A stretch of 33,193 nucleotides of DNA from Clostridia bacterium (GTDB taxonomy: Bacteria > Bacillota > Clostridia > Oscillospirales > Acutalibacteraceae): assembly GCA_017625095.1 (NCBI GenBank), contig JAGALQ010000003.1, positions 1 through 33,193 of the forward strand. The letters run 5' to 3'. The translations under genes and the position numbers were made by a program. Every line of letters starts with the position of its first letter. Positions within the stretch are counted from its first letter, which is position 1. Below the pieces are notes generated by a model, which did not search any database, was not told where the DNA came from, and saw only the letters and a program-made list of their open reading frames with translations. Shown in pieces: positions 4,295 through 24,583 of this stretch.

Positions 4295-4302
4295 ACGAGG
4301 AC

Positions 4303-4397: not shown

Positions 4398-4438
4398 CAC
4401 CACACTCAAACACAAAAATCAAAGAAAGGAGAATTAAT

Positions 4439-6240: not shown

Positions 6241-6245
6241 ATGCT

Positions 6246-6428
6246 ATGAACGCTGAAGAACTTTGCAAGAAAATGCAGGAAGAGAAAAAGGCTGACAGTG
6301 ATGAGTATTATGAAGAAATATCATCGAAGGAATATCTTGATAAATATTTCGGCACACCGTATTTTTCTGTCAGAAAATTCTTCAGACTTTGTGATGAAGA
6401 GAGAAGAAAATTCAGAAGAAATTATTAA
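6246..6428 (+). CDS. Small acidic hypothetical protein of the mobilisation operon
   Basis: The product has 60 residues and is rich in Glu, Lys and Tyr. It is predicted helical at the N-terminus and ends in a basic stretch of the form RRKFRRNY. I recognise no family. The gene is supported by a GGGAGG site, a five-base gap after the relaxase stop, and an 18-base gap before the ParB-like gene, so it fits as a translated member of the operon. It may be a relaxosome accessory protein, but nothing in the sequence shows this. Confidence 0.65.
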   Translation: MNAEELCKKMQEEKKADSDEYYEEISSKEYLDKYFGTPYFSVRKFFRLCDEERRKFRRNY

Positions 6429-6446
6429 TTTTTATGGAGGTAATTT

Positions 6447-7316: not shown

Positions 7317-7322
7317 TGCGTA

Positions 7323-7562
7323 TTGATTAGCAGAATTATAGATTTATATGAGAGCATAAAGGATGGTTTTGTAAAAACTATCAGCGATATAAAAGGCGAA
7401 TATACTTTTAACATCCCTGATGTTTCAACCTTCACCAAAGAACAGAAAATAGCATTTGACCAAATGATAGATTTCCTTGCAGATATGATTGAGAAATACG
7501 GTGACAAGATACCGAAAGGCGAAGCAGAAGCTATAAAACAACCAAATAAGAAAACAGCTTAA
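7323..7562 (+). CDS. Small hypothetical protein downstream of the ParB-like gene
   Basis: The product has 79 residues and starts at a TTG codon with GAGGTG upstream, overlapping the end of the ParB-like gene region. It reads as mostly amphipathic helix with a Lys-rich C-terminus, has no cysteines, no signal peptide and no membrane segment. I do not recognise a family. Its six-base spacing from the previous gene suggests co-translation. It is followed by a stem-loop and then the promoter of the recombinase, so it is probably the last gene of the mobilisation transcript. Confidence 0.6.
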   Translation: MISRIIDLYESIKDGFVKTISDIKGEYTFNIPDVSTFTKEQKIAFDQMIDFLADMIEKYGDKIPKGEAEAIKQPNKKTA

Positions 7563-7568
7563 ATCGTT

Positions 7569-7593
7569 GTGGGGCAGGTTTAGCCTGCCTCAC
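7569..7593 (+). terminator. Stem-loop at the end of the mobilisation operon
   Basis: GTGGGGCAGG (7569-7578) pairs with CCTGCCTCAC (7584-7593) with one wobble and a five-base loop. The stem is strong, but the T-tract after it is poor (ACATTTG), so it is a weak terminator or an RNA-stabilising hairpin. Confidence 0.5.
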
Positions 7594-7597
7594 ACAT

Positions 7598-7626
7598 TTG
7601 TCGAATATGCGAAAGAAAAATATAAT
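7598..7626 (+). promoter_or_regulatory. Promoter of the serine recombinase gene
   Basis: TTGTCG (7598-7603), a 17-base spacer and a perfect TATAAT (7621-7626) precede the recombinase ATG at 7659, which has its own AAGGAG site. Independent expression of the recombinase is plausible. Confidence 0.6.
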
Positions 7627-7658
7627 CAAAATGAAAAATTATAAGGAGTTGAAAATAT

Positions 7659-9338
7659 ATGAAACGATTAAATTGCTATATCTACACCCGTGTTTCAACA
7701 TCAATGCAGGTTGAAGGCTTCAGTCTTGATGCACAGAGAGAAAAGCTCCGTAAATATGCCGAATATCAGGAAATGCATATTGCAGGTGAATACAGTGACG
7801 AAGGTAAATCAGGTAAAAACATTGGCGGAAGACTTGAGTTTCAGAGGATGTTATCAGACATCGCAAGTGGCAAAGACAGTATAGATTATGTGCTTGTTTT
7901 CAAACTGTCCCGTTTCGGTAGAAATGCTGCTGATGTACTTTCATCATTACAGATTATGCAGGACTACGGAGCCAATCTTATTTGTGTCGAAGACGGTATA
8001 GACAGCTCAAAGGACAGCGGTAAGCTAATGATTTCTGTTTTATCTGCCGTAGCCGAAATTGAGCGTGAGAATATTCTTGTTCAGACTATGGAAGGCAGAA
8101 AACAAAAAGCAAGAGAAGGTAAGTGGAACGGTGGCTTTGCCCCTTACGGATATTATCTTGAAAAAGGTGAATTAAAGATTGCCGCAGATGAGGCTGAAAC
8201 CATACGCATTATATTTGATAAATATATAAATACCAATTTAGGAGCAAATGGTATTGCCAAATATCTCAACCAACACGGTATTGCTAAAAAGCCAAGGCAG
8301 AATGGTACATTAGATACCTTTTCTGCTCATTTTATAAAGTTGGTTATACAGAACCCTGTGTACTGCGGAAAGATAGCTTTCGGTAGGCGTAAAACTGAAA
8401 AGATTAACGGTACCCGAAATGAATATCATATAGTCAAGCAAGAACAATATCCTATTTATGACGGTATTCATGAAGCTATTGTATCTGTTGAAGATTGGGA
8501 ATTAGCACAGCAGAAACGAAAGAAATTAGGTGTTAAACGTGAGAAGATTTACAACCTTGACCACGAGCATTTATTATCCGGGTTGCTTCGCTGTCCTGTT
8601 TGCGGTGCAGCAATGTACGGAAACATTAACCGTAAGAAAAGGCCTGACGGTACAATCTACAAAGACCATTTTTATTATGCCTGTAAGCACCGAATGAGAG
8701 TTGACGGACATAAGTGCGATTATCACAGACAATGGAATCAGACTGTTGTTAATAGTGCAGTTGAAGAAGTTATTGAAAGACTTGTTTCTAATCCTGAGTT
8801 TGAAAAAGCCTTGTGTGAAAAGATAAACACAAGAGTAAGCACAGAAGGACTTGAAGAAGAGCTTGCAGTATTTAAAAAGCAACTCAATCAGCTTGTTATG
8901 TCAAAGAGAAAGCTTGCATCTCAAATGGATAGCCTTGATGTTACAGACAGGCATTATGATAAAAAGTATCAGGATATGCAAAACAGACTTTATGACTTCT
9001 ATGATGAGATAGAGGTTGTAGAAGAACAAATAACAGAATTACAATCCCGTATAGCAAATATAAAAGAAGAAAAAATATCAGGTGAAAATGTCTATCTTTT
9101 TCTGCATTATTATGGTACAATGTACAAAGAGTTTACTGATGCTGAGAAAAAGAAGTTTCTCAATACCTTCATTGAGAGTGTTGAGATATTCAAAGAAGAG
9201 CAACCCAACGGCAGACTGTTAAAGTGTATCAATTTCAAATTCCCCGTCTTTTATGACGGGGATGAGAATGTGACACATATCCGTTGGGACAGTGAAACAA
9301 CAGTCGAGACGGTTGTTCAGTTGACAAGGAACGGTTAA
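7659..9338 (+). CDS. Large serine recombinase (site-specific integrase/excisionase)
   Basis: The product has 559 residues. The resolvase catalytic domain occupies about 1-150, with YTRVST giving nucleophile S13 and the later KLSRFGRN motif. It is followed by the recombinase domain (about 160-270), a zinc ribbon with C312, C315, C342 and C353, and a coiled-coil region (about 390-470) rich in Glu, Lys and Gln. This is the layout of large serine recombinases of the TnpX/TndX type, which integrate and excise elements through short attachment sites without a divalent metal. Length is normal for the family and the gene looks intact. It is the last gene of the element, the usual place next to one attachment site. 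I could not find the paired site in the window. Confidence 0.95.
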   Translation: MKRLNCYIYTRVSTSMQVEGFSLDAQREKLRKYAEYQEMHIAGEYSDEGKSGKNIGGRLEFQRMLSDIASGKDSIDYVLVFKLSRFGRNAADVLSSLQIMQDYGANLICVEDGIDSSKDSGKLMISVLSAVAEIERENILVQTMEGRKQKAREGKWNGGFAPYGYYLEKGELKIAADEAETIRIIFDKYINTNLGANGIAKYLNQHGIAKKPRQNGTLDTFSAHFIKLVIQNPVYCGKIAFGRRKTEKINGTRNEYHIVKQEQYPIYDGIHEAIVSVEDWELAQQKRKKLGVKREKIYNLDHEHLLSGLLRCPVCGAAMYGNINRKKRPDGTIYKDHFYYACKHRMRVDGHKCDYHRQWNQTVVNSAVEEVIERLVSNPEFEKALCEKINTRVSTEGLEEELAVFKKQLNQLVMSKRKLASQMDSLDVTDRHYDKKYQDMQNRLYDFYDEIEVVEEQITELQSRIANIKEEKISGENVYLFLHYYGTMYKEFTDAEKKKFLNTFIESVEIFKEEQPNGRLLKCINFKFPVFYDGDENVTHIRWDSETTVETVVQLTRNG

Positions 9339-9473: not shown

Positions 9474-9512
9474 TCCCTTTGAGAATCAAGAGATTTTCAG
9501 AGGGATTTTTTT
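9474..9512 (+). terminator. Strong rho-independent terminator between the element and the giant-protein operon
   Basis: TCCCTTTGAGAATC (9474-9487) pairs with GATTTTCAGAGGGA (9492-9505) with two wobbles and a four-base loop, followed by seven T. It separates recombinase transcription from the next operon. The rest of the 297-base gap (9339-9635) holds a weak AT-rich hairpin near 9364-9405 and the promoter at 9568-9596, and no gene. Confidence 0.85.
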
Positions 9513-9567: not shown

Positions 9568-9596
9568 TTGACTGTGTGTTTATAAAGGTGTATAAT
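9568..9596 (+). promoter_or_regulatory. Strong sigma-A promoter of the giant repeat-protein operon
   Basis: TTGACT (9568-9573), a 17-base spacer and a perfect TATAAT (9591-9596) stand 39 bases before the ATG at 9636. GAGGAGG precedes that ATG. The promoter lies inside the longer open frame that begins at 9522, which fixes the real start at 9636. Confidence 0.85.
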
Positions 9597-9635: not shown

Positions 9636-12600
9636 ATGAAAAAAACAATCAAACGCGTCATCTCATTTATGCTTTGCTGTGTTATGATGGCTTCGGCACT
9701 TTGTGTCGGAAACATAGGCGTTTTTACAGCAGATGCAGCTTGCTACGCAGGCTGCGTGAGTGACGGCACATTGGATTACAGCTACTCAGGCTGTAAAGAA
9801 CCTACATGCACAGATAAAGGCTTTGCCATATCGTTTTGTGCTGTATGTGGCGGAGAGATGATGGTTGAGGTTGCACCGAAGGGACACGCAGATCCCGACT
9901 ATTCGGCTGTTACCGAAACTGTTGCTCCTACTTGTACAGATGCGGGTCTCGGCACATATTTCTGTGCGGACTGTCTTGCACCCTGTACTTGCGGAATACC
10001 CGCTACAGATCATGATTCTGCATCGGCTGAATGGAAAACCGTAGAAGCAGCATCCTGCAAAGAACTTGGTATGAAGGTGAAATACTGTTCAACTTGCGGT
10101 GAAGTTGCAGAAACTGATTATTTTTCGGTTGAGCATTCGGCAGGTCCCTGGCTGATTTCAATTGTACCTACATGCACAAGCGACGGTGAAAGAATCAAGA
10201 AGTGTACGATTTGCAGCGAAATAATCGAAAGCGAAATTATTCCTGCAGTCGAACACATAAAGGGCGAGAAAATCAAGGTAGAATCTGCTTGCGGCAAAGA
10301 CGGATACACTCTTATCCGTTGTGCTGATTGCGGCATCTGTCTCGAACAGACACCGATTGCAGCTGAAGAACACCAAGCAGGAGACTGGAAAATTATATCG
10401 GCTCCTACTTGTTCTTCCGAAGGTTATAAAGAAAAGACATGTAGAGATTGCGGCGCTGTTGTCGAAAGCAAAACAATTGCTGCAACAGGTCACGTGCGTA
10501 TATCTGAAATTGATCCCGCGACATGCCTTTCAAACGGCTCAAGAAGAGAGTTCTGTGGTGTTTGCGATACAACTTTATCCATAACTCCCATCAATGCCGA
10601 AGGACATTCAAAAAGCTATACACAGATTACCAAAGAGGCAACCTGTACTCAGCAGGGTGAAAAGATTACCCGTTGCGGTGTTTGTGACAAGGTTATTAGC
10701 GCTGTTCAGCTTCCGCTGGCGGCACATACAAAAGGCTCATGCGTTGTTACAAAAGAGCCTTCCTGTACAGATGTCGGAAGAGAAACCGTTTCTTGCGTAA
10801 ATTGTGAGAAGGTTCTTGAGGAAAACAGCATAGATGCACTTGGCCATTCATACGGCCCCTATATCTTTACTGTTGAACCTACTTGTGACAGTGACGGCGA
10901 AAAGGTTAAGATCTGTGCTCGCTGCGGTGTAGCGACAGAACCCGAAGTTGTCGCAGCACATGATTGTGTTCCCGGTGAGTGGAAAGTTCTCACGGTAGAA
11001 AACTGCGTGCAAAACGGATATAAATATCAGGAATGTGAAGATTGCCATACTGTACTTAAAGAAGTCATAACTCCTGCAACCGAGCATATCGCAGGTGAGT
11101 TTGAAACAACAATTCAGCCAACTTGCTGCTCGAACGGAGAAATGGTTAAGAAGTGTACGGCATGTAATGGTGTTATTGCGGTTAAAACCGTTAATAAGCT
11201 TGCACATACAGATGGAGCACCTAAGGTAGTTACAGAAGCCACTTGCTCAACAGACGGTAAGATTATTACCGATTGTGCTGTTTGCGGTACGGTTCTTGAA
11301 ACAGAAAAAATCCCGGCTAAGGGACATTCATACGGCGTTGAAATTTTTGTTGTTAATCCTACTTGTTCAAAGGATGGCGAAAAGGTTAAGGTGTGTGCCG
11401 ATTGCGGTAAAGCAACCGAACCGGTAATCGTTCCCGCAACAGGACACAGAGAGATTAAGGAAACACAAAATGCAACTTGTACGGAAGACGGACAAACCAA
11501 AACTTATTGTGGCATTTGCAATGAGGTTATTTCCGTAGATAAGGTTAAGTCAACAGGACACAGTGCTGAATACACAAGAGTTACAAAGGCTGCAACATGC
11601 ACCGAAAAGGGTGAAAAGGTTACACGTTGCGGCGTTTGCGATGCGATAACTGCAGTTGAGGAAACAGATATTGCAGAACACGTTGCGGGCACGGCTGTTG
11701 TTGTTCTTGAACCGACCTGTACTGCCCCCGGTAAAGAAGCAGTATATTGCATCAATTGCAATGCTGTTTTGGAAGAGAATGCAATTGCAGCTCTTGATCA
11801 CAGTTACGGTCCCTATATTTTCACGGTTGAACCCACTTGCATTTCTGCCGGCGAAAAGGTTAAGGTATGTGCACGCTGCGGTGAATCATCCAAACCTGAA
11901 GTTGTTCAGGCTCACGATTGCATACCGGGCGAATGGAAAGTGCTTTCCGTTGCAAGCTGTACTAAAGCCGGATATAAGTATCAGGAGTGTTCACATTGTC
12001 ACTCCATGCTTCAGGAGATTGTAACTCCTGTAATTGATCATATCCCAGGTGCATTTGAAATTTCTGTAGCTCCCACTTGTACAACTTCAGGTGAAAAGAT
12101 TCAGAAGTGTACGGAATGTAAGAGCGTTATCAAGACCGAGAAGATTGAGATGATTGCTCATGCAGAAAAAGCACCTGTAACCGTAATTGCTCCCACATGC
12201 AAAAAAGCAGGTAAGTCAGTTACTGAATGTGCTTATTGCAATAAAGTTCTCAAAGAGCAGGCTCTTCCCGCTCTTGGTCACAGCTATGGCGAGTTTATTT
12301 ACACATCTGAAGCTGACTGTGTAAAAGACGGTGAAAAAGTCAGAGTATGTGCACAGTGCGGTGAGGCAGGTGAGGCAATTGTCGTTCCTGCACGCGGACA
12401 TTCGGTTATTACCGAGGTCGTTCCCGCTACCTGTGTAAATACCGGTTATGAAAAACAGTTCTGCGGTATTTGCGACGCAGTTGTATCACTTAAACTTCTT
12501 GCACTTGAAGAGCATTCTGAAGAATACACACAGATCACTAAGGAAGCAAGCTGCACACAAAGAGGCGAAGCGGTAACACGCTGCGGTGTTTGTGACGGAA

Positions 12601-14483
12601 TAACCAAGGTTGAGCAACTCGGAAAGACTGCTCACATAGGCGGTACTGCACAGGTTGTAGTTGAGCCTACCTGCGAAAAAGCAGGCAAAGAGATAATTAC
12701 ATGTATTGATTGCGGTTTTGTAATCAAAGAGAGCAGAATTGTCGAACTCCACCACAGCTACGGTCCGTATATATTTATTGTTGAGCCTACATGCGTCAAC
12801 AGAGGACAGCGAGTAAAGGTATGTGCACGTTGCGGTGAATCCACAGACATAGAATATGTTGAAGCACATGAGTGCCTCCCCGGCGAGTGGAAGATTGTTT
12901 CCGTTGCAAGCTGTACTCAGGACGGATATAAGTATCAGGAGTGTTCACATTGTCATACAGTGCTTAATGAAACTATTACTCCTGCAACCGATCACATCAC
13001 AGGTGCTTACGAAACTACTATAGTTCCTACCTGCACGACTGTGGGTGAAAAAGTAAAGAAATGCGCTGTTTGTAACGTTGTAGTTGAAACAGAAACAATA
13101 AGCAAAGTGGCTCATGTTGAAGGTACACCTGAAATCGTTGTTGAACCTACTTGTACCACTGAAGGAAAGTCGGTCACAAACTGCGCATATTGCGACAGAT
13201 TCCTTTCATCCGAAACCATAGAGGCTAAGGGCCATATTGAAAGTTCATGGAAGGTTGTTTACGAACCCACAGCACTTAACAAAGGCCTTATGGCAAAGAA
13301 TTGTACTGTTTGCGGAATTACCCTTGAAACAGCTGATATTCCCTCTCATCAGCATACTGCAGGTGCATGGGCAATTGTTACCGAAGCCACCTGTACTACG
13401 GACGGATACAAAGTTCAGGAATGTACGGTATGCGGTGCGGAAATGGATGATGAGGTTATTCCTTCCCTTGGTCACGATGAGTGCAAAGAATGGATAACAA
13501 CAACAGCCCCCGACTGTACACACAAGGGTATTCAGGTTAAGAGCTGTACCCGTTGTAACGTTGTTCTTAAGGAGCAAAGCACAGACGCTCTCGGACATGA
13601 GAAAAGCAATAACTGGATAATTGTTACAGAAGCTACTTGTATTCGTGACGGACTTAAGGCAAGAAAGTGTACACGTTGTGATCTTGTTTTTGAAACCGAA
13701 ACATATAAAGCCCATAATCATACCCCCGGCGAATATGTTACAACAACCCCTGCAACATGTGCATCAAAAGGTCAGTCCACAAGCTCATGTGAGGATTGCG
13801 GTGTTGTAGTTGATGTTCTTGAGATTCCCGAAATCGGTCATAAGTATAACGGTCCGTGGATTGAAACAAAGGCTGCAACCTGTACTGCAGGCGGTATAGA
13901 AACAAAGTACTGTCCCGTTTGCTCACTTGCAATTGATACAAGAACTACAGCTCCTCACGGTCACAGCGAAAGCGGTTGGATTACATCTGATGCCTCCGAC
14001 TGTATGACTGAAGGCGAAAAGTATACTCAGTGTACTGTATGTAAGAGTGTGGTAACCACTGCTGTTGTTCCTGCAAAGGGTCACACATACGGACCTGCAC
14101 ACAACTGTACGGAAGATCAGAAATGTCTTGTTTGTTCTGAAATACTTACTCCTCACGACGGCGAGTCTCATGTCTGGAGCGAATGGTCAGAATATAAGAA
14201 AGCAACATTCTGCAGAGATGAAAAACTCAAGAGAAATTGCAAGAAGTGCGATGCTGTTGAGTACAAAGATGTTGAGTTCTCTTCAGGTATCCATACATTG
14301 TGGCCTCATTCTGAGAAAAACGGTGATTGCATTGCTTGTAATATAGCCAAATCTATTCAGAATGCTTTGGACACGGTTATCAGATTCCTTCATTACATAA
14401 TAGGCGGCAACACAATCGCTAAATTCTTCTACAGCGATCTCTGGGGCCTTGAATGGGATTCATGGATGTTCCCTTATGAATAA
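9636..14483 (+). CDS. Giant secreted Cys/His-repeat protein, 1615 residues
   Basis: The start at 9636 follows a promoter and a GAGGAGG site and gives a signal peptide: basic MKKTIKR, a hydrophobic core, and a likely cut after A34 (ADA). The mature part is about 36 tandem units of about 40 residues plus one degenerate unit, each of the form PTC-x3-G-x5-C-x2-C followed after about 14-17 residues by GH, DH or AH. Each unit so offers three Cys and one His, a metal-binding or disulphide set. Units 7-30 form three copies of an eight-unit super-repeat. There is no sortase motif. The C-terminal 60 residues are non-repetitive and aromatic-rich. The next giant gene begins 32 bases later, so the two are co-expressed. 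No catalytic domain is seen. Structural, adhesive or metal-binding roles are possible. Confidence 0.85.
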   Translation: MKKTIKRVISFMLCCVMMASALCVGNIGVFTADAACYAGCVSDGTLDYSYSGCKEPTCTDKGFAISFCAVCGGEMMVEVAPKGHADPDYSAVTETVAPTCTDAGLGTYFCADCLAPCTCGIPATDHDSASAEWKTVEAASCKELGMKVKYCSTCGEVAETDYFSVEHSAGPWLISIVPTCTSDGERIKKCTICSEIIESEIIPAVEHIKGEKIKVESACGKDGYTLIRCADCGICLEQTPIAAEEHQAGDWKIISAPTCSSEGYKEKTCRDCGAVVESKTIAATGHVRISEIDPATCLSNGSRREFCGVCDTTLSITPINAEGHSKSYTQITKEATCTQQGEKITRCGVCDKVISAVQLPLAAHTKGSCVVTKEPSCTDVGRETVSCVNCEKVLEENSIDALGHSYGPYIFTVEPTCDSDGEKVKICARCGVATEPEVVAAHDCVPGEWKVLTVENCVQNGYKYQECEDCHTVLKEVITPATEHIAGEFETTIQPTCCSNGEMVKKCTACNGVIAVKTVNKLAHTDGAPKVVTEATCSTDGKIITDCAVCGTVLETEKIPAKGHSYGVEIFVVNPTCSKDGEKVKVCADCGKATEPVIVPATGHREIKETQNATCTEDGQTKTYCGICNEVISVDKVKSTGHSAEYTRVTKAATCTEKGEKVTRCGVCDAITAVEETDIAEHVAGTAVVVLEPTCTAPGKEAVYCINCNAVLEENAIAALDHSYGPYIFTVEPTCISAGEKVKVCARCGESSKPEVVQAHDCIPGEWKVLSVASCTKAGYKYQECSHCHSMLQEIVTPVIDHIPGAFEISVAPTCTTSGEKIQKCTECKSVIKTEKIEMIAHAEKAPVTVIAPTCKKAGKSVTECAYCNKVLKEQALPALGHSYGEFIYTSEADCVKDGEKVRVCAQCGEAGEAIVVPARGHSVITEVVPATCVNTGYEKQFCGICDAVVSLKLLALEEHSEEYTQITKEASCTQRGEAVTRCGVCDGITKVEQLGKTAHIGGTAQVVVEPTCEKAGKEIITCIDCGFVIKESRIVELHHSYGPYIFIVEPTCVNRGQRVKVCARCGESTDIEYVEAHECLPGEWKIVSVASCTQDGYKYQECSHCHTVLNETITPATDHITGAYETTIVPTCTTVGEKVKKCAVCNVVVETETISKVAHVEGTPEIVVEPTCTTEGKSVTNCAYCDRFLSSETIEAKGHIESSWKVVYEPTALNKGLMAKNCTVCGITLETADIPSHQHTAGAWAIVTEATCTTDGYKVQECTVCGAEMDDEVIPSLGHDECKEWITTTAPDCTHKGIQVKSCTRCNVVLKEQSTDALGHEKSNNWIIVTEATCIRDGLKARKCTRCDLVFETETYKAHNHTPGEYVTTTPATCASKGQSTSSCEDCGVVVDVLEIPEIGHKYNGPWIETKAATCTAGGIETKYCPVCSLAIDTRTTAPHGHSESGWITSDASDCMTEGEKYTQCTVCKSVVTTAVVPAKGHTYGPAHNCTEDQKCLVCSEILTPHDGESHVWSEWSEYKKATFCRDEKLKRNCKKCDAVEYKDVEFSSGIHTLWPHSEKNGDCIACNIAKSIQNALDTVIRFLHYIIGGNTIAKFFYSDLWGLEWDSWMFPYE
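9795..14280 (+). repeat. Array of about 36 Cys/His units in the first giant protein
   Basis: The core spacing is C-x9-C-x2-C followed by a histidine. Most units begin with PTC or ATC and have a glycine four positions after the first Cys. The unit near 13270 has lost its first Cys (PTA), and the last unit (about 14210-14270) is degenerate. Confidence 0.9.
10518..13379 (+). repeat. Three tandem copies of a 954-base (eight-unit) higher-order repeat
   Basis: Equivalent ATC codons mark the copies at 10518, 11472 and 12426, exactly 954 bases (318 residues) apart. Landmarks recur at the same offset: CGVCD in unit 2, SYGPYIF before unit 4, and PGEWK followed by GYKYQEC in unit 5. The third copy has a divergent last unit. 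Units at the same position in different copies resemble each other more than their neighbours do, which indicates duplication of the whole octamer. Confidence 0.85.
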
Positions 14484-14515
14484 GCTTTTGTTTTCAGAGG
14501 AGGTAAATAAGTAAG

Positions 14516-17500
14516 ATGAGTAAAATTGCTAAGCAAATACTTTCTTTTTTCCTCGTTGTTATAATGATGTTCGGCGCAGCCACTCCCGGCATTTCGGCGG
14601 TAGTGGATATGAGTCTTAACGCTAAGGCGGTAAGCAATTACAGCGCAACAGCCGCGGCAAAATATGCCATGGAATGGTGGAACGGCAGAAATAACGACAT
14701 CTGGTCAGACTATGATAAATGGGGCGGCGACTGTGCTAACTTTATTTCACAGTGCCTTTATGCCGGCGGTATCCCCATGACTCCGAAGTGGTATTTCCAC
14801 AAGAGAACGGGACCTAACCCTTCCGGTCTTTCAACCGAAAGAACGGAATCCTTCACAATGGTTAACGGTCTTAAGGGTCACACAACAGAAGATAACCGTT
14901 CTCTTTACAGATACCTTATCAGTATCGGCGGACAGGTTATAAAGAATCCCAGCGCATCCGATGTATCTGTCGGTGACGTTCTTTTCTACGACTGGGAAGG
15001 TGACGGATTTTACAACCACGTTGCAATCTGTGTTGATATAGTTAACGGTATTCCTAAAGTTGCATGCCACTATAGTGACAGATGTACTGAGAACTGGACT
15101 ATCGGTGCAGCTCAAAGCAATATGGCGGTAATCAAGCTTTACGGAACACCTTGTGTCAATTCAGCTCCCAGCTATGACGTATATAAAGTAACAGCCAAGA
15201 GTATTATCCTCAGAAGTGATGCTTCAACCTCATCTGCCGGAAAGGGTGTTTCGGCAGGCGTTGACTTTATTCTCCACGTTACCGAAACAAAAAATGTTAA
15301 CGGATATACCTGGGGTAAATGTAAGGTTAAGGGTGTTGAAGGTTGGCTCAGACTTACAGGCTATACAAGATACATCACACATGTTGATTCAATCCCCGTT
15401 GACCACGTCTGGGGCGATTGGTATGTTGTAACAAAGCCCACTTGCGTTGACAAGGGCCTTGAAAAGCGCAACTGTAAGCGTTGCGGTCTTGAGCAACAAA
15501 GGGAAACCGCATGCGGCGGACATAAGGAAGTAAGACCTGCAACTTGCCTTGAGGCTTCGTACTGTTCAGCCTGTGGCGCGCTTGTTTCTCCCGCCCTTGG
15601 TCACAGCTACGGAAGCTGGCAGACTCATATTCCGGCTACCTGCCTTGAAGGCGGTCAGGATAAGCACATCTGTACACGTTGCGGTCATACAGAATACAAG
15701 GATTCTCAACCGCTCGGCCATGATCATCAGCCGACAGTAAAGCTTCCTTTCTGTGAGACAGAGGGTGAAACGGTATACAAGTGTACACGATGCAATGATT
15801 CATATACGGATAAGAGTACATGGTCTGCATGGACAACACTCGATGACCCGTCGGTTCTTTCAAAATATCCGTCTGATGTTTGGGAAAGCAAAACGCAGTA
15901 TAGGTATCAGGACAGGTATTATACTGATGCCTACGAAGAAACCAAAACAACTAATCCCATTCCTGCAGGCGATAATTATATTGTCAAAACCAAAGAAATC
16001 ATAACAAAACAGATTTGGTATCAACTTGACTATTACTGCACAAGAACCAGTAACCAAGTTCGTCACTTCAGAACAGAGAGTATAAACGGACAGTATTCTG
16101 CCTATGGAGTGGACTCGAATTATGGTGAGTACCATCTCAGCACTGCCCATGGAGAGGTTTGGGTCACCCAAGAAACACTTAACTCTCTCCAGAAAGTAAA
16201 CCCGGGCGAACGCTTATATGCATCACAGGGTGGTATAAATAAAAGTAGTCAGGTAGCTTATGCTTATGAATACAATCCCCAGTTGAAATATACAGCACCT
16301 TGTTTTGTTATGGGTGAAAAAACGGAAGAAAAAAAAGTCGTTGAATACTACAAGTCATATATCAACTGGACTGATTTTACCGACTGGAGCGACACTCCGG
16401 TAACTGCAACCAATGACAGAAAAGTAGAAACCAGAACAGTTTACAGATTTAAGCAGGCTGCCCTTAACCACGATGATGTATATTCAACCGTTCAGAGAAC
16501 CTGTTACGAAGACGGCTGTACAAGAGCTACCTGTCAGCGTTGCGGCAGAACATATGATACCGAAATCGTCCCCAAGGGAAACCACGTTACAATGGGCGAA
16601 TGGTATCAGTGGACTCCCGAAAACAGCAACGATCCCGATATTGTTGTTTACCGCAGAGACTGTAAAACAACTCCCGGCTGTGATTATTATGAGCTTAAAG
16701 AGCTTAAAATCACAAGAAAGGTTGTTGAACCCAACTGTACAGCAGAGGGTTATACTCTCGTAACAATTACCGATAGTTCCGGAAAAGTTGTTGCAGAGTA
16801 TGAAGAAGAGGGAAGCAGAGTTCCCGCTCTCGGTCACGATATGAGCGAATTTAAAATGATATTGCCTCCTACATGTACCGAAAAAGGTCAGAGCGAAGCT
16901 AAATGTAGGCGTGACGGTTGTAAGCATAAGGAATATAAGGATATAGATCCTCTCGGTCACATAGAGGTTGTTGATCCTGCTATTGCTCCCACTTGTACTA
17001 TCACAGGTCTTACCCAGGGCTCACACTGCTCACGCTGCGACAAAGTTGTTGTTGCACAGGAAGTTGTTCCTGCAACAGGCCATAATATGGGCGAATGGAA
17101 ACCATATTCACCCGAAGAATATGTAAACGGTGAAATCATGTGCGGCGGTATGGGCACAGACAGACGTTTCTGTCAGAACCAGAACTGTGAGTATTATGAA
17201 GACAGACACGTAGACGGTCCTGAACATAATTTTGTTGTTGTTGACAGCAAAGATGCAACCTGTACTCTTCCCGGTTTCATTCAGAAAGAGTGTTCAAGAT
17301 GCGGCTTGCCCGATGCAACGTTTACAATTGAACCTCTCGGTCACATCAAAGGCGACGAGTACACTGTATATCCCACCTGCCTTGATGATGGCTTTACCGG
17401 TTGGGACTGCCAGCGAGAAGGATGTGACCACACAGAGAAGACAAAGCAGCTTCCCGCTACAGATCACAATCTCAAAGAAGAGTATCATCCCAGCACCTGT

Positions 17501-20500
17501 ACAACAGGCGGATATTGGGAATACAGCTGTCAGAATACAAATAAAAACACAAACCAACCCTGTGGATATTATTATATCGTTACAGAAGATCAGCTTGGCC
17601 ATGAATGGGGCGATTGGGAAGTTGTAACTCCCGCAACTTGTGATGCTCCCGGTATGGAAAAGCGTGAGTGTATCAGACACGACGCAGAGGAAACCAGAGT
17701 AATAAATCCCATCGGCCATAATTATAAGCCGACTAAGGTTGAAGCTGACTGTCTGAACAATGGCGGAACAACCTATGTCTGCCAGAACGATTCAAGCCAT
17801 ACATACACAGACGATATTGTTCCCGCACTCGGTCACGATTGGGGTAAATGGGAAACTGTTACAGAACCCGGCTGTATCACGGAAGGCGTCAAAAAGCATA
17901 TTTGTAACAGAGATTCATCACACGTTGAAACAGACAAAATCCCCGCTCTCGGCCATACACCCGTAACAGATAACGGCAAGCCCGCAACCTGTCTTGATAA
18001 GGGTATAACCGAAGGCGCTCATTGTTCGGTTTGTAAGACGACTCTTACTGCTCAGGAAGATATTCCCGCACTCGGTCATGATTGGGGTGAGTGGGATATC
18101 AAAGAACCTACCTGTACAGAAGACGGATACAAAAAACATATATGTAACAGAGATTCTTCACACGTTGAGCAAGAACCTCTTAAAGCACCCGGACACACAA
18201 CTGAAATTATTCCCGGTGTTGCACCTACCTGTCTTGATGACGGTCTGACCGAAGGTCTCGTGTGTACCACCTGTAAGGAAGTTCTTGTAGCACAGGAAGT
18301 TATCCCTGCGCTCGACCACGATTGGGGTGAATGGCAGGTTATTTCCGCTTCATCCTGTGTTGCAGAAGGTAAGGAACACAGAGTATGTAAGAGAGATGCA
18401 TCCCACGTGGATTACAGAGGTGTTGCTAAGGATCCTCATCCCATAGTTATAGATGAAGGCTATTCGGCAACTTGTGAAAACACCGGTCTTACCGAAGGCT
18501 CTCATTGCTCAAGCTGTAACGAAGTTCTTGTTGCACAGGAAGTAATTCCTGCTCTCGGCCATGACTGGAGCGAATGGACACGTGTTGAGCCTTCTTGCCT
18601 TGAAGACGGCTATGAAAAACGTGTATGTAAGAGAGATCCCTCTCACGTTGAACAAGTGGTTATTCCTGCGACGGGTCATATTCCCGTAACAGATGAAGCG
18701 GTTCCTGCAACTTGCCTCAAAACCGGTCTGACAGAGGGTTCTCATTGCTCTGCTTGCGACGAGATTCTTGTTGAACAGACGGTTACTCCTGTTCTTGGAC
18801 ATGACTGGGGTGATTGGGAAACAATAACAGCACCCGATTGCCTTACTGACGGCGAGCAGAAGAGAGTATGTCACAGAGATGCCTCTCACGTTGAAAAGAC
18901 AAAGATTCCCGCTCTCGGTCACGATGCAGTGATAGATGCACCGGTAGATGCAACTTGTCTTAAATCCGGTAAAACTGCAGGCTCCCACTGTTCTGCTTGT
19001 GATGCAGTGATTGAAAAGGCGGAATATATTGCACCTCTCGGTCACGATTGGGGTGCATGGGATATCAAGAATCCTACTTGTGAGGAAGACGGTTATGAAA
19101 AGCGCGTATGTGAGCGTGATTCCTCTCATAAGGAAGAAAAAACGCTTGAAGCAACCGGTCATTCAAGTGAAGCAGTAAGAGGAAAAACTCCCACTTGCCT
19201 TGAAACCGGTCTCACCGAAGGCTCTGTATGCTCAACTTGCGATAAAGTTCTTGTTGAACAAGAGATTATTCCCAAGCTCGGCCACGATTGGGGCGAATGG
19301 GAAGATATTGACAGTGACTGTGTAAACGACGGCAGCAACAAGAGAGTATGTAACCGAGATTCTTCTCATACTGAAGAAAAAATTATTCCTGCAAAGGGAC
19401 ACACAGTTGTTGAGGACGAAGGCAAGGCAGCAACTTGTGAAAGCACCGGTCTTACAGGCGGTTCTCATTGTTCAGTCTGTGATGAGACAATAGTTAAGCA
19501 GGAGGTTATTCCCGAACTCGGTCACGATTGGGGCGAGTGGAATATAAAAGAACCCACTTGCGAAGAAGATGGTTATAAGGACAGAGTTTGTAAGCGAGAT
19601 CCTTCTCATACAGAACACGAAGATCTGCTCCATACGGAACACACGGTTGTAATCGATAAGGCAGTTCCTCCGACCTGCCTCGAAACCGGTCTTACAGAAG
19701 GCTCACATTGTTCCGGTTGCAATGAGGTTATCGTTGCACAGGAAGTTGTTCCGGCATTGGATCATGATTGGGGCGATTGGAAGATAACAACTGAAGCCGG
19801 ATGCATTACAAATGGCGAAAGAAAGGCTGTTTGTAACAGAGATGCTTCTCATATCAAAACAGAAGTAATTCCTGCCAAAGGACATACTTCGGTCAGTGAA
19901 GACGCTATACCCGCAACATGCCTTAATTCCGGTAAAACCGAAGGTTCACACTGTTCCGTTTGTAACGCTGTTATAAAGAAAGCGGAATATATCGCACCTC
20001 TCGGTCACGATTGGGGCGAATGGGACGTTAAAGATCCCACTTGTACAGAAGACGGTTATGAACACCGTGTATGTAAGAGAGATCCTTCACACGTTGAACA
20101 CGAAGATATCAAGGCACTTGGTCATTCAGCCGAAACAATTCCTGCTGTTGAACCGACATGTGAGGATACAGGTCTCACAGAAGGCTCTGTATGCTCAACT
20201 TGTGATAAAGTTCTTGTTGAGCAAGAGGTTGTTCCCGCACTTGGCCACGATTGGGGCGAATGGGAAGAAATCAACAGCGATTGTATAAACGATGGCAGCC
20301 GTAAGAGAGTATGTAACAGAGATATTTCTCATATTCAGGAAGAGGTTATTCCTGCGGCAGGTCACGTTATAGTTACAGATCCCGGTAAAGATCCGACATG
20401 TGAAGATGCAGGTCTTACAGAAGGTTCACATTGCTCAACCTGTAAGGAAATAATCGTTAAACAGCAGATTATCCCTGCACTCGGTCACGATTGGGGCGAG

Positions 20501-23500
20501 TGGGATATCAAAGAACCCACCTGTACAGAAGAAGGTTATAAAAACCGCGTATGTAACAGAGATTCTTCACATACACAGGGCGAAATTCTTTATGCAAAGG
20601 GTCATACAGAAGAGATTGATACAGGTTATTCGGCAACTTGTGAAGAGCCCGGTCTTTCTAAGGGGTCACATTGTTCCGAATGTGGTGAAGTTCTTGCTGC
20701 TCAGGAGGTTATTCCTGCTCTCGGTCACGATTGGGGCGAATGGCATATAATCAATAAACCCGATTGTCTTAACGAGGGAAATCAGGAACGAATCTGTAAC
20801 CGTGACAATTCTCACGTTGAAAAGTTAACTCTTCCGCCACTTGGCCACACTGTTGTAATTGACCCCGCCGTTGAACCCACCTGTACACAATCAGGCTCAA
20901 CTGCAGGTTCACATTGCTCAGTCTGTGACGGTGTAATCGAAAAAGTTGAAACAATCGATCCGCTCGGTCACGAAATGGGTGAATGGTACATTGTTACTCC
21001 TGCTGATTACGGTGTTGAAGGTCTTGAACAGTGTGACTGTATCAGAGGCGACAAGAGCGAAACCAGACCCATTCCCGCTCTGATCAAAAATACATATACC
21101 GCAACCTTTGTTATTGGTGATGAGATTATCGGAACGGTAACCTTCGAAGAGGGCGCAAAGAGCATTGACGAGCCTCCGATTCCCGAAAAGGATAACTACA
21201 TCGGCAGATGGGATGATTATGTGCTCGGTAATGAGAATATAGTCATCGAAGGTCACTATGAACCTAAGAATTCCGATAATGTTTCTGACCTCGAAAAGGA
21301 AAAAACAGCTGAGTATAAGGACGGAATTGCAAAAATTACTCTCAGCGCTCATGCACAGACGAAGGCAATTAACATTCTTTCGGAAAAGACAAAGCCCGTT
21401 GACGTTGTACTTGTTCTCGACCAGTCGGGAAGTATGGATGAGGCTATGGGCAAAACAAATTCCGAAAAGAAAATAAATGCGCTTCTTAAATCGGCAAATG
21501 CGTTTGTTGATTCCGTTTACGATAATGCTGTTGCAACCGGTGCTGACCACAGAGTGGCTATCGTTGGATTTGCATATTCAGATTTAAAAGAAGACAGCAA
21601 GTTTGTAAACACCGAAATTATTACAACATTAGACGGTGAACCCATAGGATACACAGCGTCAGGCAATAATAGCGCATATAAGAATGCTCTTATGCCTATA
21701 ATGGCACAGAACGGCGAAATTAATCCTCTTGTTAAGGGTGTTATCACTTCCGAAAAGATTGTACCTGAAGGTGCAACAGCTGCAGACGCCGGTCTTGATA
21801 TGGCTAAACGTGTTTTCTCCAACAATCCCATTGCTGCGGGAGAAGAGCGAGAAAGAATAGTTCTGTTTATTACAGACGGTGTTCCGACAGCTTGGGGTGG
21901 TGAGCAATACAGTGCTATCAAACTTATTCCCAACGATGCGCTTAAAATAGCAAACGAAATCAAAAATTCTCTTGGAGCAAAAATCTATAGCGTCGGTATT
22001 TCAGAAGGTATTGACCCTGCGGCTGATTTCAAGAAAATTGAAGATGAGTTCGGATGTTACAATATAAACAGAAGTAAAGATACGGCAAGCTTTGATTTCA
22101 ACAGATTCCTCCATTACGTTTCATCTAACTATCCGGATGCAACAGCTATGGATTTCGGAGGAACAGGTGATAAAGCCAGCGGCTTCTATCTTGCAGCTAC
22201 CGAAACAGACAAACTTCAGTCTATTTTCAGCGATATTCTTTACAGCAGCGTTTATGCAGTAACAACGTTTGACAAAGTTTCTCTTATTGATACTGTTTCA
22301 GCTGAATTTACAATGACAATGGAACAGGAAGATGCTTTCAGAGCAAATCTTGCTGCAGAAAAGGGCCTTGGTGATGAGAATATTACCATCACTCGTAATG
22401 CGGACGGAACAACCACAATAAGAGTTGATAACGTCAAGGCTGAAAAGGTATATGACGAAGAAGGAAAGGCTTACTACAGAGCTGAAGTATCCTTTGAGGT
22501 AACCGCTAACAAGAATGCGCTCGATCCCGGCAAGTACGAAACAAACACTGACGATGCCGGTATTATGATTGACGGAGTATACGTTGAAAAATTCGATGTT
22601 CCCACAATTATCATCACTGAACCGCGAAACATTGTTGTTTTCACAATTAACGGCAATGTTTACAGAATAGATGAAGGCAAACTCGGCGACAGTATTACTG
22701 TTCCCGAAAGCGATCTTGCTAAGTGGGATATACCCGATGATGCTGTTATAACCGAAAGCTATATGGAAATTGAGGCTTCGGAAATCTGTGCAGATGAGTA
22801 TACAATCGTCTGGAAGATTAATGATGAAAGCATCGTAACAAAACATAAGGTCGGAACGGTTATTGAACCCATCGAAGTTGCGGCTCCTTCGTCTGAGCTT
22901 GAGTTTGCAGGTTGGTCACCGGCTCTTCGTAACACAATGCCTGCTATGAATCTTGTTTATACAGCAACATTCAAGTCAACTCATGAACACGAGTTTGTTG
23001 AAACAGGAAAAAGCGGTGACTGTGAATCAGGAATCATCACTTATAAAGAGTGTGCCTGCGGCGAAAAGACTCAGTCAGTATCTGCTTCTTCCCAGCATAC
23101 ATATAAGGTTGATATTGACGAAAACAGCACAGATACCATTGATGAACTGTTCTGCACAACTTGCGGTAAAACAGATGACCGTGTTGTTAAGTACACTTGT
23201 GCTTATAAATCATGGAGACCGAATCAGACAATAGAAATGAATCTCTATGAGGATGACATTCAGGTTCAGCTTGAAGACGAAAAGATTTATGTTAAGATTC
23301 CCATTGAAAGCAGCCTTCGCAAAAAAACTTTTGTTGTTAAGAGAACTAACGCAGACGGAACAACAGATATACTGGATAGCCGAGTAGAAAACGGTTGTCT
23401 TGTATTCGAAGTAGATCACTTCAGTATTTACAATATTTTGGCTGTAGACGATGAAACGGGTCTTCCTGTTGAAGAACCTACTTACGAGCAGAGTGTATGT

Positions 23501-24583
23501 GCTCTCCATGGCCATAAAACAGAAACCACGGTTGTTGCTCCCACATGTGAAAGAGATGGTTACACAAAGCATCTCTGCACAAACTGTGGCTACTTCACTT
23601 ATACTGATGAAGTTCCTGCAACAGGCCATACTTACACAGACACAACAGTTAAGCCTGACTGTACGCACGACGGTTATGTTGAGCATGTTTGTGATTCCTG
23701 CGGTCATACCTTTAAGGACAACGAGACAGTTTCTCCCGGACACAGTTATGCAACAGAAGTAACTGCTCCTACCTGTACTCTTGATGGCTACACCACTTAT
23801 ATATGCTCTGCGTGCGGTCATACCTATAAGGGTGACGAGGTTGAAAAGACTGGTCACAAGTATAAGACAACTGTTGTTGAAGCAACTTGTACAGCAGCCG
23901 GTTACACTCTTAATGAGTGTGAAAACTGCGGTACCGATTTTATTGATAACCATACTGCTTCTCTGGGTCACAGCTACGTGGATACGGTTGTTGAATCCAC
24001 CTGCACCAGTGAAGGCTATACTTCACATGTCTGCTCACGTTGCTCGTATACATATGTTGATTCCACAACTGCATCAGCAGGACACAGCTATGTTTCAACT
24101 GTTGTTGCTGCAACCTGTACTCAGGGTGGATATACGGTAAACGAATGCTCTGCTTGCGGACATTCTTACAAGAGTGACGAGACTGCTGCGAAGGGTCATA
24201 CACCTTCAGGCGATTGGGTTGTCAAAGACGGAAAGCATGTACAGCTTTGCGCTGATTGTAACGAAGTTGCACACAGTAAAGATATTGTTATTGATGTTCC
24301 CGATAATGTCACAATTTCAGGCAATAATCTCATTGTGTTCTACAAGATGTCAGACAAGCTGGATATTACGGTTTCTGAAGGAAAGTTAATCTATCAATCA
24401 GCAGATCCGAGAATTGCGGTTGTTGACGAAAACGGTAAGGTAACCGGTCTCAAGACGGGTTCAACCACGATAACTGCGGTTGCCGAAGGCTCTGATACTT
24501 CTGTAACAATTAATGTTCAGGTTCGTTACACTTGGTGGCAGTGGATTATTATGATTTTCTTCCTTGGTTTCCTCTGGTATTAA
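14516..24583 (+). CDS. Giant multidomain surface protein (amidase, SH3b, Cys/His repeats, VWA, BIG2), 3355 residues
   Basis: The ATG follows AGAGGAGG, with a signal peptide cut near A28. Domains in order: putative amidase (Amidase_6-like, about 39-215; C73 in GGDCANFISQ and H168 in YNHVAIC as likely catalytic pair); SH3b-like (about 221-287); Cys/His units (about 295-440); an aromatic, Tyr/Trp-rich insert (about 440-650); further units (about 655-2160), including three 321-322 residue super-repeats; an InlB B-repeat-like segment (about 2192-2248); a VWA domain (about 2291-2535) with MIDAS D2302-x-S2304-x-S2306 and D2454 in ITDG; a second InlB-like segment (about 2761-2822); six more Cys/His units (about 3000-3240); BIG2 (about 3262-3338); and a hydrophobic C-terminal tail (3339-3355). 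The amidase and SH3b parts suggest peptidoglycan contact, and VWA suggests metal-dependent binding. It has no LPXTG motif, so the tail or SH3b region may anchor it. Confidence 0.88.
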   Translation: MSKIAKQILSFFLVVIMMFGAATPGISAVVDMSLNAKAVSNYSATAAAKYAMEWWNGRNNDIWSDYDKWGGDCANFISQCLYAGGIPMTPKWYFHKRTGPNPSGLSTERTESFTMVNGLKGHTTEDNRSLYRYLISIGGQVIKNPSASDVSVGDVLFYDWEGDGFYNHVAICVDIVNGIPKVACHYSDRCTENWTIGAAQSNMAVIKLYGTPCVNSAPSYDVYKVTAKSIILRSDASTSSAGKGVSAGVDFILHVTETKNVNGYTWGKCKVKGVEGWLRLTGYTRYITHVDSIPVDHVWGDWYVVTKPTCVDKGLEKRNCKRCGLEQQRETACGGHKEVRPATCLEASYCSACGALVSPALGHSYGSWQTHIPATCLEGGQDKHICTRCGHTEYKDSQPLGHDHQPTVKLPFCETEGETVYKCTRCNDSYTDKSTWSAWTTLDDPSVLSKYPSDVWESKTQYRYQDRYYTDAYEETKTTNPIPAGDNYIVKTKEIITKQIWYQLDYYCTRTSNQVRHFRTESINGQYSAYGVDSNYGEYHLSTAHGEVWVTQETLNSLQKVNPGERLYASQGGINKSSQVAYAYEYNPQLKYTAPCFVMGEKTEEKKVVEYYKSYINWTDFTDWSDTPVTATNDRKVETRTVYRFKQAALNHDDVYSTVQRTCYEDGCTRATCQRCGRTYDTEIVPKGNHVTMGEWYQWTPENSNDPDIVVYRRDCKTTPGCDYYELKELKITRKVVEPNCTAEGYTLVTITDSSGKVVAEYEEEGSRVPALGHDMSEFKMILPPTCTEKGQSEAKCRRDGCKHKEYKDIDPLGHIEVVDPAIAPTCTITGLTQGSHCSRCDKVVVAQEVVPATGHNMGEWKPYSPEEYVNGEIMCGGMGTDRRFCQNQNCEYYEDRHVDGPEHNFVVVDSKDATCTLPGFIQKECSRCGLPDATFTIEPLGHIKGDEYTVYPTCLDDGFTGWDCQREGCDHTEKTKQLPATDHNLKEEYHPSTCTTGGYWEYSCQNTNKNTNQPCGYYYIVTEDQLGHEWGDWEVVTPATCDAPGMEKRECIRHDAEETRVINPIGHNYKPTKVEADCLNNGGTTYVCQNDSSHTYTDDIVPALGHDWGKWETVTEPGCITEGVKKHICNRDSSHVETDKIPALGHTPVTDNGKPATCLDKGITEGAHCSVCKTTLTAQEDIPALGHDWGEWDIKEPTCTEDGYKKHICNRDSSHVEQEPLKAPGHTTEIIPGVAPTCLDDGLTEGLVCTTCKEVLVAQEVIPALDHDWGEWQVISASSCVAEGKEHRVCKRDASHVDYRGVAKDPHPIVIDEGYSATCENTGLTEGSHCSSCNEVLVAQEVIPALGHDWSEWTRVEPSCLEDGYEKRVCKRDPSHVEQVVIPATGHIPVTDEAVPATCLKTGLTEGSHCSACDEILVEQTVTPVLGHDWGDWETITAPDCLTDGEQKRVCHRDASHVEKTKIPALGHDAVIDAPVDATCLKSGKTAGSHCSACDAVIEKAEYIAPLGHDWGAWDIKNPTCEEDGYEKRVCERDSSHKEEKTLEATGHSSEAVRGKTPTCLETGLTEGSVCSTCDKVLVEQEIIPKLGHDWGEWEDIDSDCVNDGSNKRVCNRDSSHTEEKIIPAKGHTVVEDEGKAATCESTGLTGGSHCSVCDETIVKQEVIPELGHDWGEWNIKEPTCEEDGYKDRVCKRDPSHTEHEDLLHTEHTVVIDKAVPPTCLETGLTEGSHCSGCNEVIVAQEVVPALDHDWGDWKITTEAGCITNGERKAVCNRDASHIKTEVIPAKGHTSVSEDAIPATCLNSGKTEGSHCSVCNAVIKKAEYIAPLGHDWGEWDVKDPTCTEDGYEHRVCKRDPSHVEHEDIKALGHSAETIPAVEPTCEDTGLTEGSVCSTCDKVLVEQEVVPALGHDWGEWEEINSDCINDGSRKRVCNRDISHIQEEVIPAAGHVIVTDPGKDPTCEDAGLTEGSHCSTCKEIIVKQQIIPALGHDWGEWDIKEPTCTEEGYKNRVCNRDSSHTQGEILYAKGHTEEIDTGYSATCEEPGLSKGSHCSECGEVLAAQEVIPALGHDWGEWHIINKPDCLNEGNQERICNRDNSHVEKLTLPPLGHTVVIDPAVEPTCTQSGSTAGSHCSVCDGVIEKVETIDPLGHEMGEWYIVTPADYGVEGLEQCDCIRGDKSETRPIPALIKNTYTATFVIGDEIIGTVTFEEGAKSIDEPPIPEKDNYIGRWDDYVLGNENIVIEGHYEPKNSDNVSDLEKEKTAEYKDGIAKITLSAHAQTKAINILSEKTKPVDVVLVLDQSGSMDEAMGKTNSEKKINALLKSANAFVDSVYDNAVATGADHRVAIVGFAYSDLKEDSKFVNTEIITTLDGEPIGYTASGNNSAYKNALMPIMAQNGEINPLVKGVITSEKIVPEGATAADAGLDMAKRVFSNNPIAAGEERERIVLFITDGVPTAWGGEQYSAIKLIPNDALKIANEIKNSLGAKIYSVGISEGIDPAADFKKIEDEFGCYNINRSKDTASFDFNRFLHYVSSNYPDATAMDFGGTGDKASGFYLAATETDKLQSIFSDILYSSVYAVTTFDKVSLIDTVSAEFTMTMEQEDAFRANLAAEKGLGDENITITRNADGTTTIRVDNVKAEKVYDEEGKAYYRAEVSFEVTANKNALDPGKYETNTDDAGIMIDGVYVEKFDVPTIIITEPRNIVVFTINGNVYRIDEGKLGDSITVPESDLAKWDIPDDAVITESYMEIEASEICADEYTIVWKINDESIVTKHKVGTVIEPIEVAAPSSELEFAGWSPALRNTMPAMNLVYTATFKSTHEHEFVETGKSGDCESGIITYKECACGEKTQSVSASSQHTYKVDIDENSTDTIDELFCTTCGKTDDRVVKYTCAYKSWRPNQTIEMNLYEDDIQVQLEDEKIYVKIPIESSLRKKTFVVKRTNADGTTDILDSRVENGCLVFEVDHFSIYNILAVDDETGLPVEEPTYEQSVCALHGHKTETTVVAPTCERDGYTKHLCTNCGYFTYTDEVPATGHTYTDTTVKPDCTHDGYVEHVCDSCGHTFKDNETVSPGHSYATEVTAPTCTLDGYTTYICSACGHTYKGDEVEKTGHKYKTTVVEATCTAAGYTLNECENCGTDFIDNHTASLGHSYVDTVVESTCTSEGYTSHVCSRCSYTYVDSTTASAGHSYVSTVVAATCTQGGYTVNECSACGHSYKSDETAAKGHTPSGDWVVKDGKHVQLCADCNEVAHSKDIVIDVPDNVTISGNNLIVFYKMSDKLDITVSEGKLIYQSADPRIAVVDENGKVTGLKTGSTTITAVAEGSDTSVTINVQVRYTWWQWIIMIFFLGFLWY
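15830..16480 (+). repeat. Aromatic-rich insert with two related Trp/Tyr modules in the second giant protein
   Basis: Two related segments flank it: TWSAWTTLDDPS with KTQYRYQDR downstream (from about 15818), and NWTDFTDWSDTPVTA with VETRTVYRFK (about 16363-16455). The pattern W-x-D-W, then VETRT-YR-(Y/F), is shared. Between them is a Tyr/Asn-rich stretch of about 140 residues with few Cys. It interrupts the Cys/His array and may be a separate binding domain. Confidence 0.6.
18095..20986 (+). repeat. Three tandem copies of a 963-966-base (four-dimer) higher-order repeat
   Basis: The copies are 18095-19060 (966 bases), 19061-20023 (963) and 20024-20986 (963). Each holds four dimers of about 80 residues. 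In a dimer, unit A is C-x9-C-x5-H (for example C..DGY..RVC-RD-SH) and unit B is C-x10-C-x2-C, with GHDWGEW linking dimers. Position-specific landmarks such as EYIAPLGHDWG and SVCSTCDKVLVEQ recur at the 963-base interval. Confidence 0.88.
23500..24290 (+). repeat. C-terminal block of six Cys/His units in the second giant protein
   Basis: Six units of about 41 residues share the form GHxYxTxVVxPTC-x3-GY-x4-C-x2-CG-x-Y/F, with a final shortened unit near 24220-24280. They are closer to each other than to the central array, with aromatic residues after the second CxxC, so they seem a separate amplification. Confidence 0.8.

Follow-up and report, generated by a model that had tools for sequence, protein, structure and literature searches.

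The window analyzed here is one whole contig of 33193 bases, from a genome of 2.46 Mb in 53 contigs that is 87% complete. It contains two long genes, P1 and P2, that encode arrays of Cys/His units of about 40 residues (Table 1). The genes are consecutive on the same strand, separated by 32 bases, and P2 has a GAGGAGG sequence of its own. GAGGAGG also precedes the ATG of P1, which is most likely the start of this gene, rather than GTG 9522. The short gap, the GAGGAGG of P2, and the promoter-like site and ribosome-binding sequence of P1 indicate that the two genes probably form one operon. A promoter-consensus scan found 2 sites in the stretch, compared to 1.4 in shuffled sequences. On the 3' side of P2 are HAD, FMN oxidoreductase, SDR, FAD-binding, sugar-isomerase-like and GH3 genes.

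From the N-terminus, P2 is composed of an Amidase_6 domain, a group of units, an insert with a W-S-x-W motif, a long array of two alternating unit types (A and B), a vWA-like domain, a tail array, a Big_2 domain and a hydrophobic C-terminus. No Pfam match was reported in the insert. Both vWA scores are just below the curated Pfam cut-offs. A D-x-S-x-S motif within 21413-21436 resembles the start of a MIDAS. The C-terminus of P2 belongs to a W-Q...L-F-G-W-I-W-Y-like aromatic type that is also found in three other array proteins, L114, L093 and L094, and that follows Big_2 in P2, L114 and L093. It is perhaps an unrecognized membrane or sorting signal.

Table 1. Features of the P1/P2 locus, in window coordinates
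Feature	Position	Strand	Remarks
Mobilizable element	1748-9338		Cys_rich_VLP, NikA/MobC-like, relaxase, ParB, large serine recombinase; left third of window, ends just 5' of P1
Terminator-like hairpin	9474-9505		Between recombinase gene and promoter-like site of P1
Promoter-like TTGACT-17-TATAAT	9568..9596	+	Ahead of P1; 11/12 consensus matches
P1, 1615 aa	9636..14483	+	ATG 9636, stop 14483; signal-peptide-like start (by eye), about 36 Cys/His units, hydrophobic C-terminal tail
P1 candidate N-cap	9738..9755	+	C-x3-C ahead of first unit; suggested by cap rule, form not H-x-H
P1 unit array	9807..14120	+	Units counted from first Cys
P1 octamer copy 1	10518..11471	+	954 bases; aa 295
P1 octamer copy 2	11472..12425	+	954 bases; aa 613
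P1 octamer copy 3	12426..13379	+	aa 931; last unit (from 13272) diverged
P2, 3355 aa	14516..24583	+	Signal-peptide-like start (by eye), hydrophobic C-terminus
Amidase_6 (aa 41-204)	14636..15127	+	Pfam, E 1.7e-27
W-S-x-W insert	15818-16453		Between N-terminal units and main array of P2; like sequences in L119, L178, L179
P2 main array	16502..21085	+	Last unit 20966-21085 without C1 and closing His, as cap rule predicts
P2 octamer copy 1	18095..19060	+	966 bases; unit Cys aa 1200
P2 octamer copy 2	19061..20023	+	963 bases; unit Cys aa 1522
P2 octamer copy 3	20024..20986	+	963 bases; unit Cys aa 1843
vWA-like domain	21404..22048	+	VWA_2 E 1.2e-05 (26.4 of 27 bits), VWA E 1.1e-04 (22.9 of 23.8 bits)
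P2 tail array	23495..24307	+	H-x-H N-cap 23504-23524; last unit 24194-24259 without C1 and closing His
Big_2 domain	24374..24490	+	E 8.5e-07
P2 C-terminal hydrophobic/aromatic segment	24527..24580	+	Ends W-Y

Octamer blocks and array length

A sequence-only reading of this DNA had claimed that both arrays carry three copies of an eight-unit block, with a C-x2-C in all units of P1 and alternating units in P2. Our analysis confirmed the coordinates and spacings of the blocks in both genes. It also confirmed the C-x2-C in the P1 unit list, in which one unit (at 13272) lacks the first Cys and contains an H-x-H (S-H-Q-H, 13344-13364).

The triplication in P1 is well supported. The best self-offset of the gene is 954 (48.8% of bases identical), followed by 1908 (43.3%) and 120 (39.6%). 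Units eight apart share an identity of 0.447, compared to 0.329 in shuffles (z 8.6), and none of 5000 shuffles reached the score. The nearest unit lies at a multiple of eight for 22 of the 23 units from 7 to 29, and for 25 of 36 over the whole array. In an IQ-TREE tree of units 7-29, which carries the program's warning of few columns, units group by octamer position. Supported clades of three are found for positions 1 (97/98), 3 (96/90), 4 (96/91) and 5 (98/98), and position 8, with two copies in the tree, forms a pair (89/83). Positions 2, 6 and 7 have no resolved grouping. This is strong support for octamer duplication. The eighth unit of the third copy, at an identity of 0.31, is no closer than chance, and the homology spans about 23 units, just short of three octamers.

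In P2, the claim of a triplicated octamer was supported in part. The main repeat signal is the A/B alternation, which explains much of the periodicity, and the two types are separated at 100/100 in the unit tree. When lags were measured within each class, lag 8 was supported for the A units (reached in 3 of 5000 shuffles) and had no support for the B units (254 of 5000), for which lag 4 was better (40 of 5000). The tree gave weak support: position 8 groups in three copies and position 2 in copies 2 and 3, whereas the other positions do not group. Whole octamers share a mean identity of 0.60 (copies 1 and 2, 2 and 3) or 0.57 (1 and 3), compared to 0.53-0.58 when shifted by four units. The best self-diagonal of P2 has an offset of 321 and covers 563 residues at 61% identity (residues 1279-1841 against 1600-2162).

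Copies of the octamer are 57-59% identical in bases in P1 and 66.7% in P2, where the base-level measure covers copies 2 and 3. In both genes, pS is 0.63-0.78 and pN is 0.25-0.33. Because the measured copies differ by 33-43% of bases at such pS values, the sequences indicate that the octamers are old segmental duplications under constraint. The divergence excludes an assembly artefact, which the sequence-only reading had raised.

Relatives of P2 allowed us to examine how its array became long. At E ≤1e-15, matches to the head of P2 were found in 11 of 398 family genomes, its own included. Three measurable relatives have a related head, array and vWA: L119 (2205 aa, with Amidase_6 and VWA by Pfam), L178 (2035 aa) and L179 (2338 aa, truncated by contig ends outside the array). 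L180, L181, L184 and others were left out of the length comparison, owing to contig-end cuts or to the lack of an array. Measured from the end of the W-S-x-W insert to 100 residues before the vWA motif, the array region is 1552 aa long in P2, compared to about 660 in L119, 560 in L178 and 900 in L179. No octamers were found in the arrays of these three relatives, and their best self-diagonals score 71, 77 and 183, respectively, compared to 1988 in P2. L119 aligns to P2 residues 1-1274 (29%) and 1714-3090 (34%), and L178 to 1-1143 (32%) and 1716-2975 (32%). Since relatives with a related head and vWA hold shorter arrays without octamers, the octamer zone of P2 is an expansion of roughly 650-1000 residues (roughly 16-25 units), most simply on the P2 lineage. 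Between genera, array length differs among the P2 relatives.

A search of 59 relatives gave no ortholog of P1, and in 33 of them the matches were to the repeat only. Lengthening of P1 is suggested by its octamers alone. Two array proteins of a same-genus genome, L076, with 14 and 13 units, are at most candidate orthologs of P1. They adjoin each other (L076:6093-11084) and are 51% identical over 620 residues, a tandem gene duplication unlike P1 and P2. Adjoining same-strand array genes were seen in 4 of the 55 array regions examined. Another array protein is encoded in the genome of P1 and P2 (L073, G000:C15:36000-52000). It has 1983 aa, with a BspA-type LRR, roughly nine units and a vWA region that shares 35% identity with its counterpart in P2, an arrangement that by its sequence is domain shuffling around the same kind of array.

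The equal block size in two neighboring genes had suggested a common cause, either an eight-unit structural period or a single recombination process in the two genes. The best lag was measured for each array of at least 8 units found by the strict detector, 15 in the first set and 10 in the held-out set. Among the seven arrays with at least 16 units, lag 8 is the best lag only in those of P1 and P2, and the two genes adjoin. Both also show a weaker four-unit echo, with a lag 4 z of 2.0 and a clade of positions 4 and 8 (90/94) in P1, and a lag 4 z of 2.4 for the B units in P2. However, the other five long arrays peak at 1, 3, 4, 5 and 15 (5 and 15 weakly), lags 2, 3 and 4 reach z of at least 2.5 in other arrays, and another protein has a repeat of 417 residues, which corresponds to about ten units. 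A two-unit period, under which best lags would be even, was rejected: 14 of 15 best lags were even in the first set, but 8 of 10 were odd in the held-out set, with lag 3 at z 6.2 and 4.1. Finally, a comparison of the P1 and P2 octamers in all registers gave no match (means 0.309-0.353), which agrees with the earlier view that one array is not a copy of the other. A common cause is rather doubtful on this evidence, and the results do not support an eight-unit structural period common to the two proteins. The same amplification mechanism in both neighbors, given the equal block size, is possible. We conclude that block size is free, and that its equality in P1 and P2 reflects chance or a shared recombination history that is no longer legible.

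The unit, its predicted fold and the array ends

Units share a mean identity of 0.33 in P1 and 0.43 in P2. Type A units have four conserved ligand-like residues, arranged as C1-x9/10-C2-x2-C3 with a closing H. In type B units, an S-H contributes its H in place of C3, giving two Cys and a second His compared to three Cys in type A. No Pfam or NCBIfam model for the unit was found in P1 or P2. AlphaFold2 models, calculated without metal, had a mean pLDDT of 92.1 for the P2 tail array and 95.1 for a stretch of A/B units. Both contain three strands per unit, 21 in the seven units of the tail array and 15 in the five of the A/B stretch. In the models, H is located before strand 1, C1 after strand 1 and C2-x2-C3 at the end of strand 2. 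This strand order is predicted to place C1 and the next H at one end of the up-and-down sheet, and C2 and C3 at the opposite end. A Foldseek search with the model returned matches to β-propeller chains among the 50 rows listed, with rmsd values of 47-62 Å and query TM scores of 0.08-0.13, as expected for an extended chain. Compared to solved chains, P1 has only one match below E 0.1, residues 864-979 of an IgA protease (9qa6_A, phmmer E 1.2e-5). The remaining 11 rows for P1 list kinases, with E values of at least 0.11. With P2 as a single query, no solved chain was matched at E ≤0.1.

The array ends were examined in three sets of segments: a discovery set (33 of 48 segments after duplicate removal), a held-out set (41 of 64 after overlap removal) and a distant set of eight segments from three genomes (G374, G399 and G247) of the same phylum outside the class. 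One chain rule was applied to all positions, framed after the strict counts in the discovery and held-out sets had been seen; the other ligand rules were framed on the discovery set. The sets include some short antisense or chance frames. Since the segments share ancestry, they are less independent than the shuffle and Fisher values imply.

Last units often lack both C1 and the closing H. In the discovery set, this was found at 19 of 30 ends compared to 1 of 300 other positions. The counts were 27 of 41 compared to 0 of 346 in the held-out set, and 8 of 24 compared to 0 of 137 in the distant set. C2-x2-C3 is retained in the last units. Taking the discovery and held-out sets together, 46 of the 71 ends lack both residues, 15 lack C1 but not H, 2 lack H but not C1, and 8 retain the pair. 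The pair is retained at 12 of 24 ends in the distant set, where C1 alone is missing at 25 of 137 inner positions. Many of the exceptional ends appear, by eye, to be breaks inside arrays.

At the other end, first units are often preceded by an N-cap, [HC]-x(1,2)-[HC]. It was found ahead of 18 of 33 first units compared to 19 of 233 internal units, and ahead of 20 of 55 compared to 12 of 241 in the held-out set. Inside the arrays, ligands appear to be exchanged. Units without C3 have another C or H within seven residues in 56 of 65 cases, compared to 33 of 239 units with C3 (held-out set, 47 of 54 compared to 19 of 276). Such Cys-to-His exchange at one site fits a metal site rather than a disulfide. 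Inner units without C1 contain a second H or C near the closing H in 8 of 14 cases in the first set; in the held-out set this holds for 3 of 3, compared to 33 of 238 units with C1, although the units without C1 are few. The P1 unit at 13272, with its S-H-Q-H, is an example.

A second kind of C-cap is found in L119, L179 and at some other ends. It contains the closing H, a D/N-rich loop and C-D-x-C-G, in a pattern of the H-x-D-x-N-x-D-G-x-C-D-x-C-G kind. This cap may bind calcium as well.

A putative metal joint between units

The losses at array ends and the extra H-x-H-like pair before first units suggested a site shared between units, formed by C1 and H with C2-x2-C3 of the next unit. In the model that we propose, P1 and P2 would be exported, probably surface-held proteins, with an extracellular rod as their bulk. 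A metal ion, most likely zinc, would staple every joint between neighboring units. Site k would be formed by C1 and H of unit k-1, or the N-cap, together with C2 and C3 of unit k. The N-cap, often present at the start of an array, would supply the missing H/C pair, and the last unit would have lost C1 and H because it has no following unit to join. Separate old block duplications in each gene would have lengthened the rod, in P2 between the Amidase_6 head and the vWA-like domain, with eight as the size of the copied block and not a structural period. The array ends and the ligand exchange fit, indirectly, four Cys/His ligands shared across the unit interface. Metal binding itself we infer from these sequence patterns. 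We consider the whole model, with metal-jointed surface rods, inter-unit sites, caps and growth by octamer blocks, to be likely.

The four ligands could instead belong to self-contained zinc ribbons, in which C1, C2, C3 and H of one unit hold one metal and the array resembles beads on a string. Each ligand occurs once per unit, zinc ribbons commonly contain three Cys and one His in a span of 40 residues, and no array of such units turned up among solved structures in the sequence search. However, this arrangement does not predict that last units lose exactly C1 and H while keeping C2-x2-C3, nor the extra H-x-H ahead of first units. The predicted strand order also sets C1 and the next H at the end of the sheet opposite to C2 and C3. 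We regard independent ribbons as unlikely. Disulfides within or between units, with the His residues incidental, would suit Cys-rich proteins that are probably exported. Yet A units have three Cys and B units two with a second His, and units that lack C3 tend to have a C or H close by instead. The IgA protease, which has related domains, showed no disulfides in its experimental structures or models (PMC12237041), although the experimental structures stop before these domains. Disulfides as the main linkage are highly improbable.

If the joint rule of the metal-jointed model is true, a very common kind of surface protein in these bacteria becomes readable from sequence, with the number of units giving the rod length and missing half-sites marking its ends. 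Of the whole proposal, the joint rule most deserves testing, and the P1 and P2 arrays also offer a case for studying how rods grow when blocks are duplicated. At about 37 Å per unit, a value taken from the model in PMC12237041, the predicted length would be near 29 nm for an octamer and near 130 nm for P1. More tentatively, these arrays could represent an undescribed, widespread class of metal-jointed rod, with every joint a tetrahedral site of two half-sites on neighboring units, N-caps and C-caps encoded as half-sites, as many metals as joints, a stalk stiffness and reach that could depend on the metal supply, and growth by blocks of any size, here octamers. This wider reading is possible, and we hold it as a conjecture.

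Occurrence and comparison with known systems

The unit is common in the family, with matches in 87 of 150 sampled genomes (E ≤1e-3), and rare in a phylum sample, with matches in 8 of 249 genomes (E ≤1e-10), the genome of P1 and P2 included in both; the two thresholds differ, so the counts do not form a ratio. In 13 array proteins of relatives that were scanned, the array is accompanied by BspA-type LRR, GH25, CE2_N, cohesin, Flg_new, vWA or Amidase_6. Three of the 13 also contain dockerin, one SLH and four Big_2; some have none of these. By analogy, this company is that of a surface stalk. Among the 73 C-termini listed, three look sortase-like, and one further pattern match is spurious. The sequences suggest that P1 and P2 are probably surface-held, and the models predict the rod shape.

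Small Cys/His units in tandem are known from zinc ribbon and zinc finger arrays. Unlike these, P1 and P2 are probably extracellular, and their metal site would, judging from the sequences, be common to neighboring units.

The closest similarity is to the ZBD1 and ZBD2 of the Thomasclavelia ramosa M64 IgA protease (IgAse), the protein matched by P1 (entry 9qa6, which belongs to PMC12237041). According to that paper, the experimental structures end at N876, before the ZBD region. ZBD1 and ZBD2 were modeled with AlphaFold3, with zinc at the subdomain interfaces 'pending experimental validation'. Each modeled subdomain has a three-stranded sheet, four Cys/His ligands are located at the interfaces, and three subdomains measure 110 Å. 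Unlike the P1 array, which forms the main body with about 36 units, the ZBDs are protease accessories of three and two subdomains. The published sites come from a model, whereas the inter-unit sites proposed for P1 and P2 are suggested by array ends in many proteins.

Periscope proteins, bacterial surface stalks of tandem repeats (PMC9704523), are similar in that a single chain carries an N-terminal functional domain on a long stalk of repeats, and repeat duplication sets its length. The repeats of Periscope proteins show high mutual identity, and strains differ in how many they have. In contrast, units in P1 and P2 share much less identity, as do the octamer copies (57-67% of bases), and for this reason no rapid length switching is expected. 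The available text of PMC9704523, a paper that uses the word zinc once, contains no mention of metal joints.

Distant array matches were also seen in a 518 kb plasmid-collection record of Monoglobus pectinilyticus (NZ_OY725736.1:176740-177432, 26% identity) and in two unannotated faecal phage records (MT837831.1 and MT836599.1).
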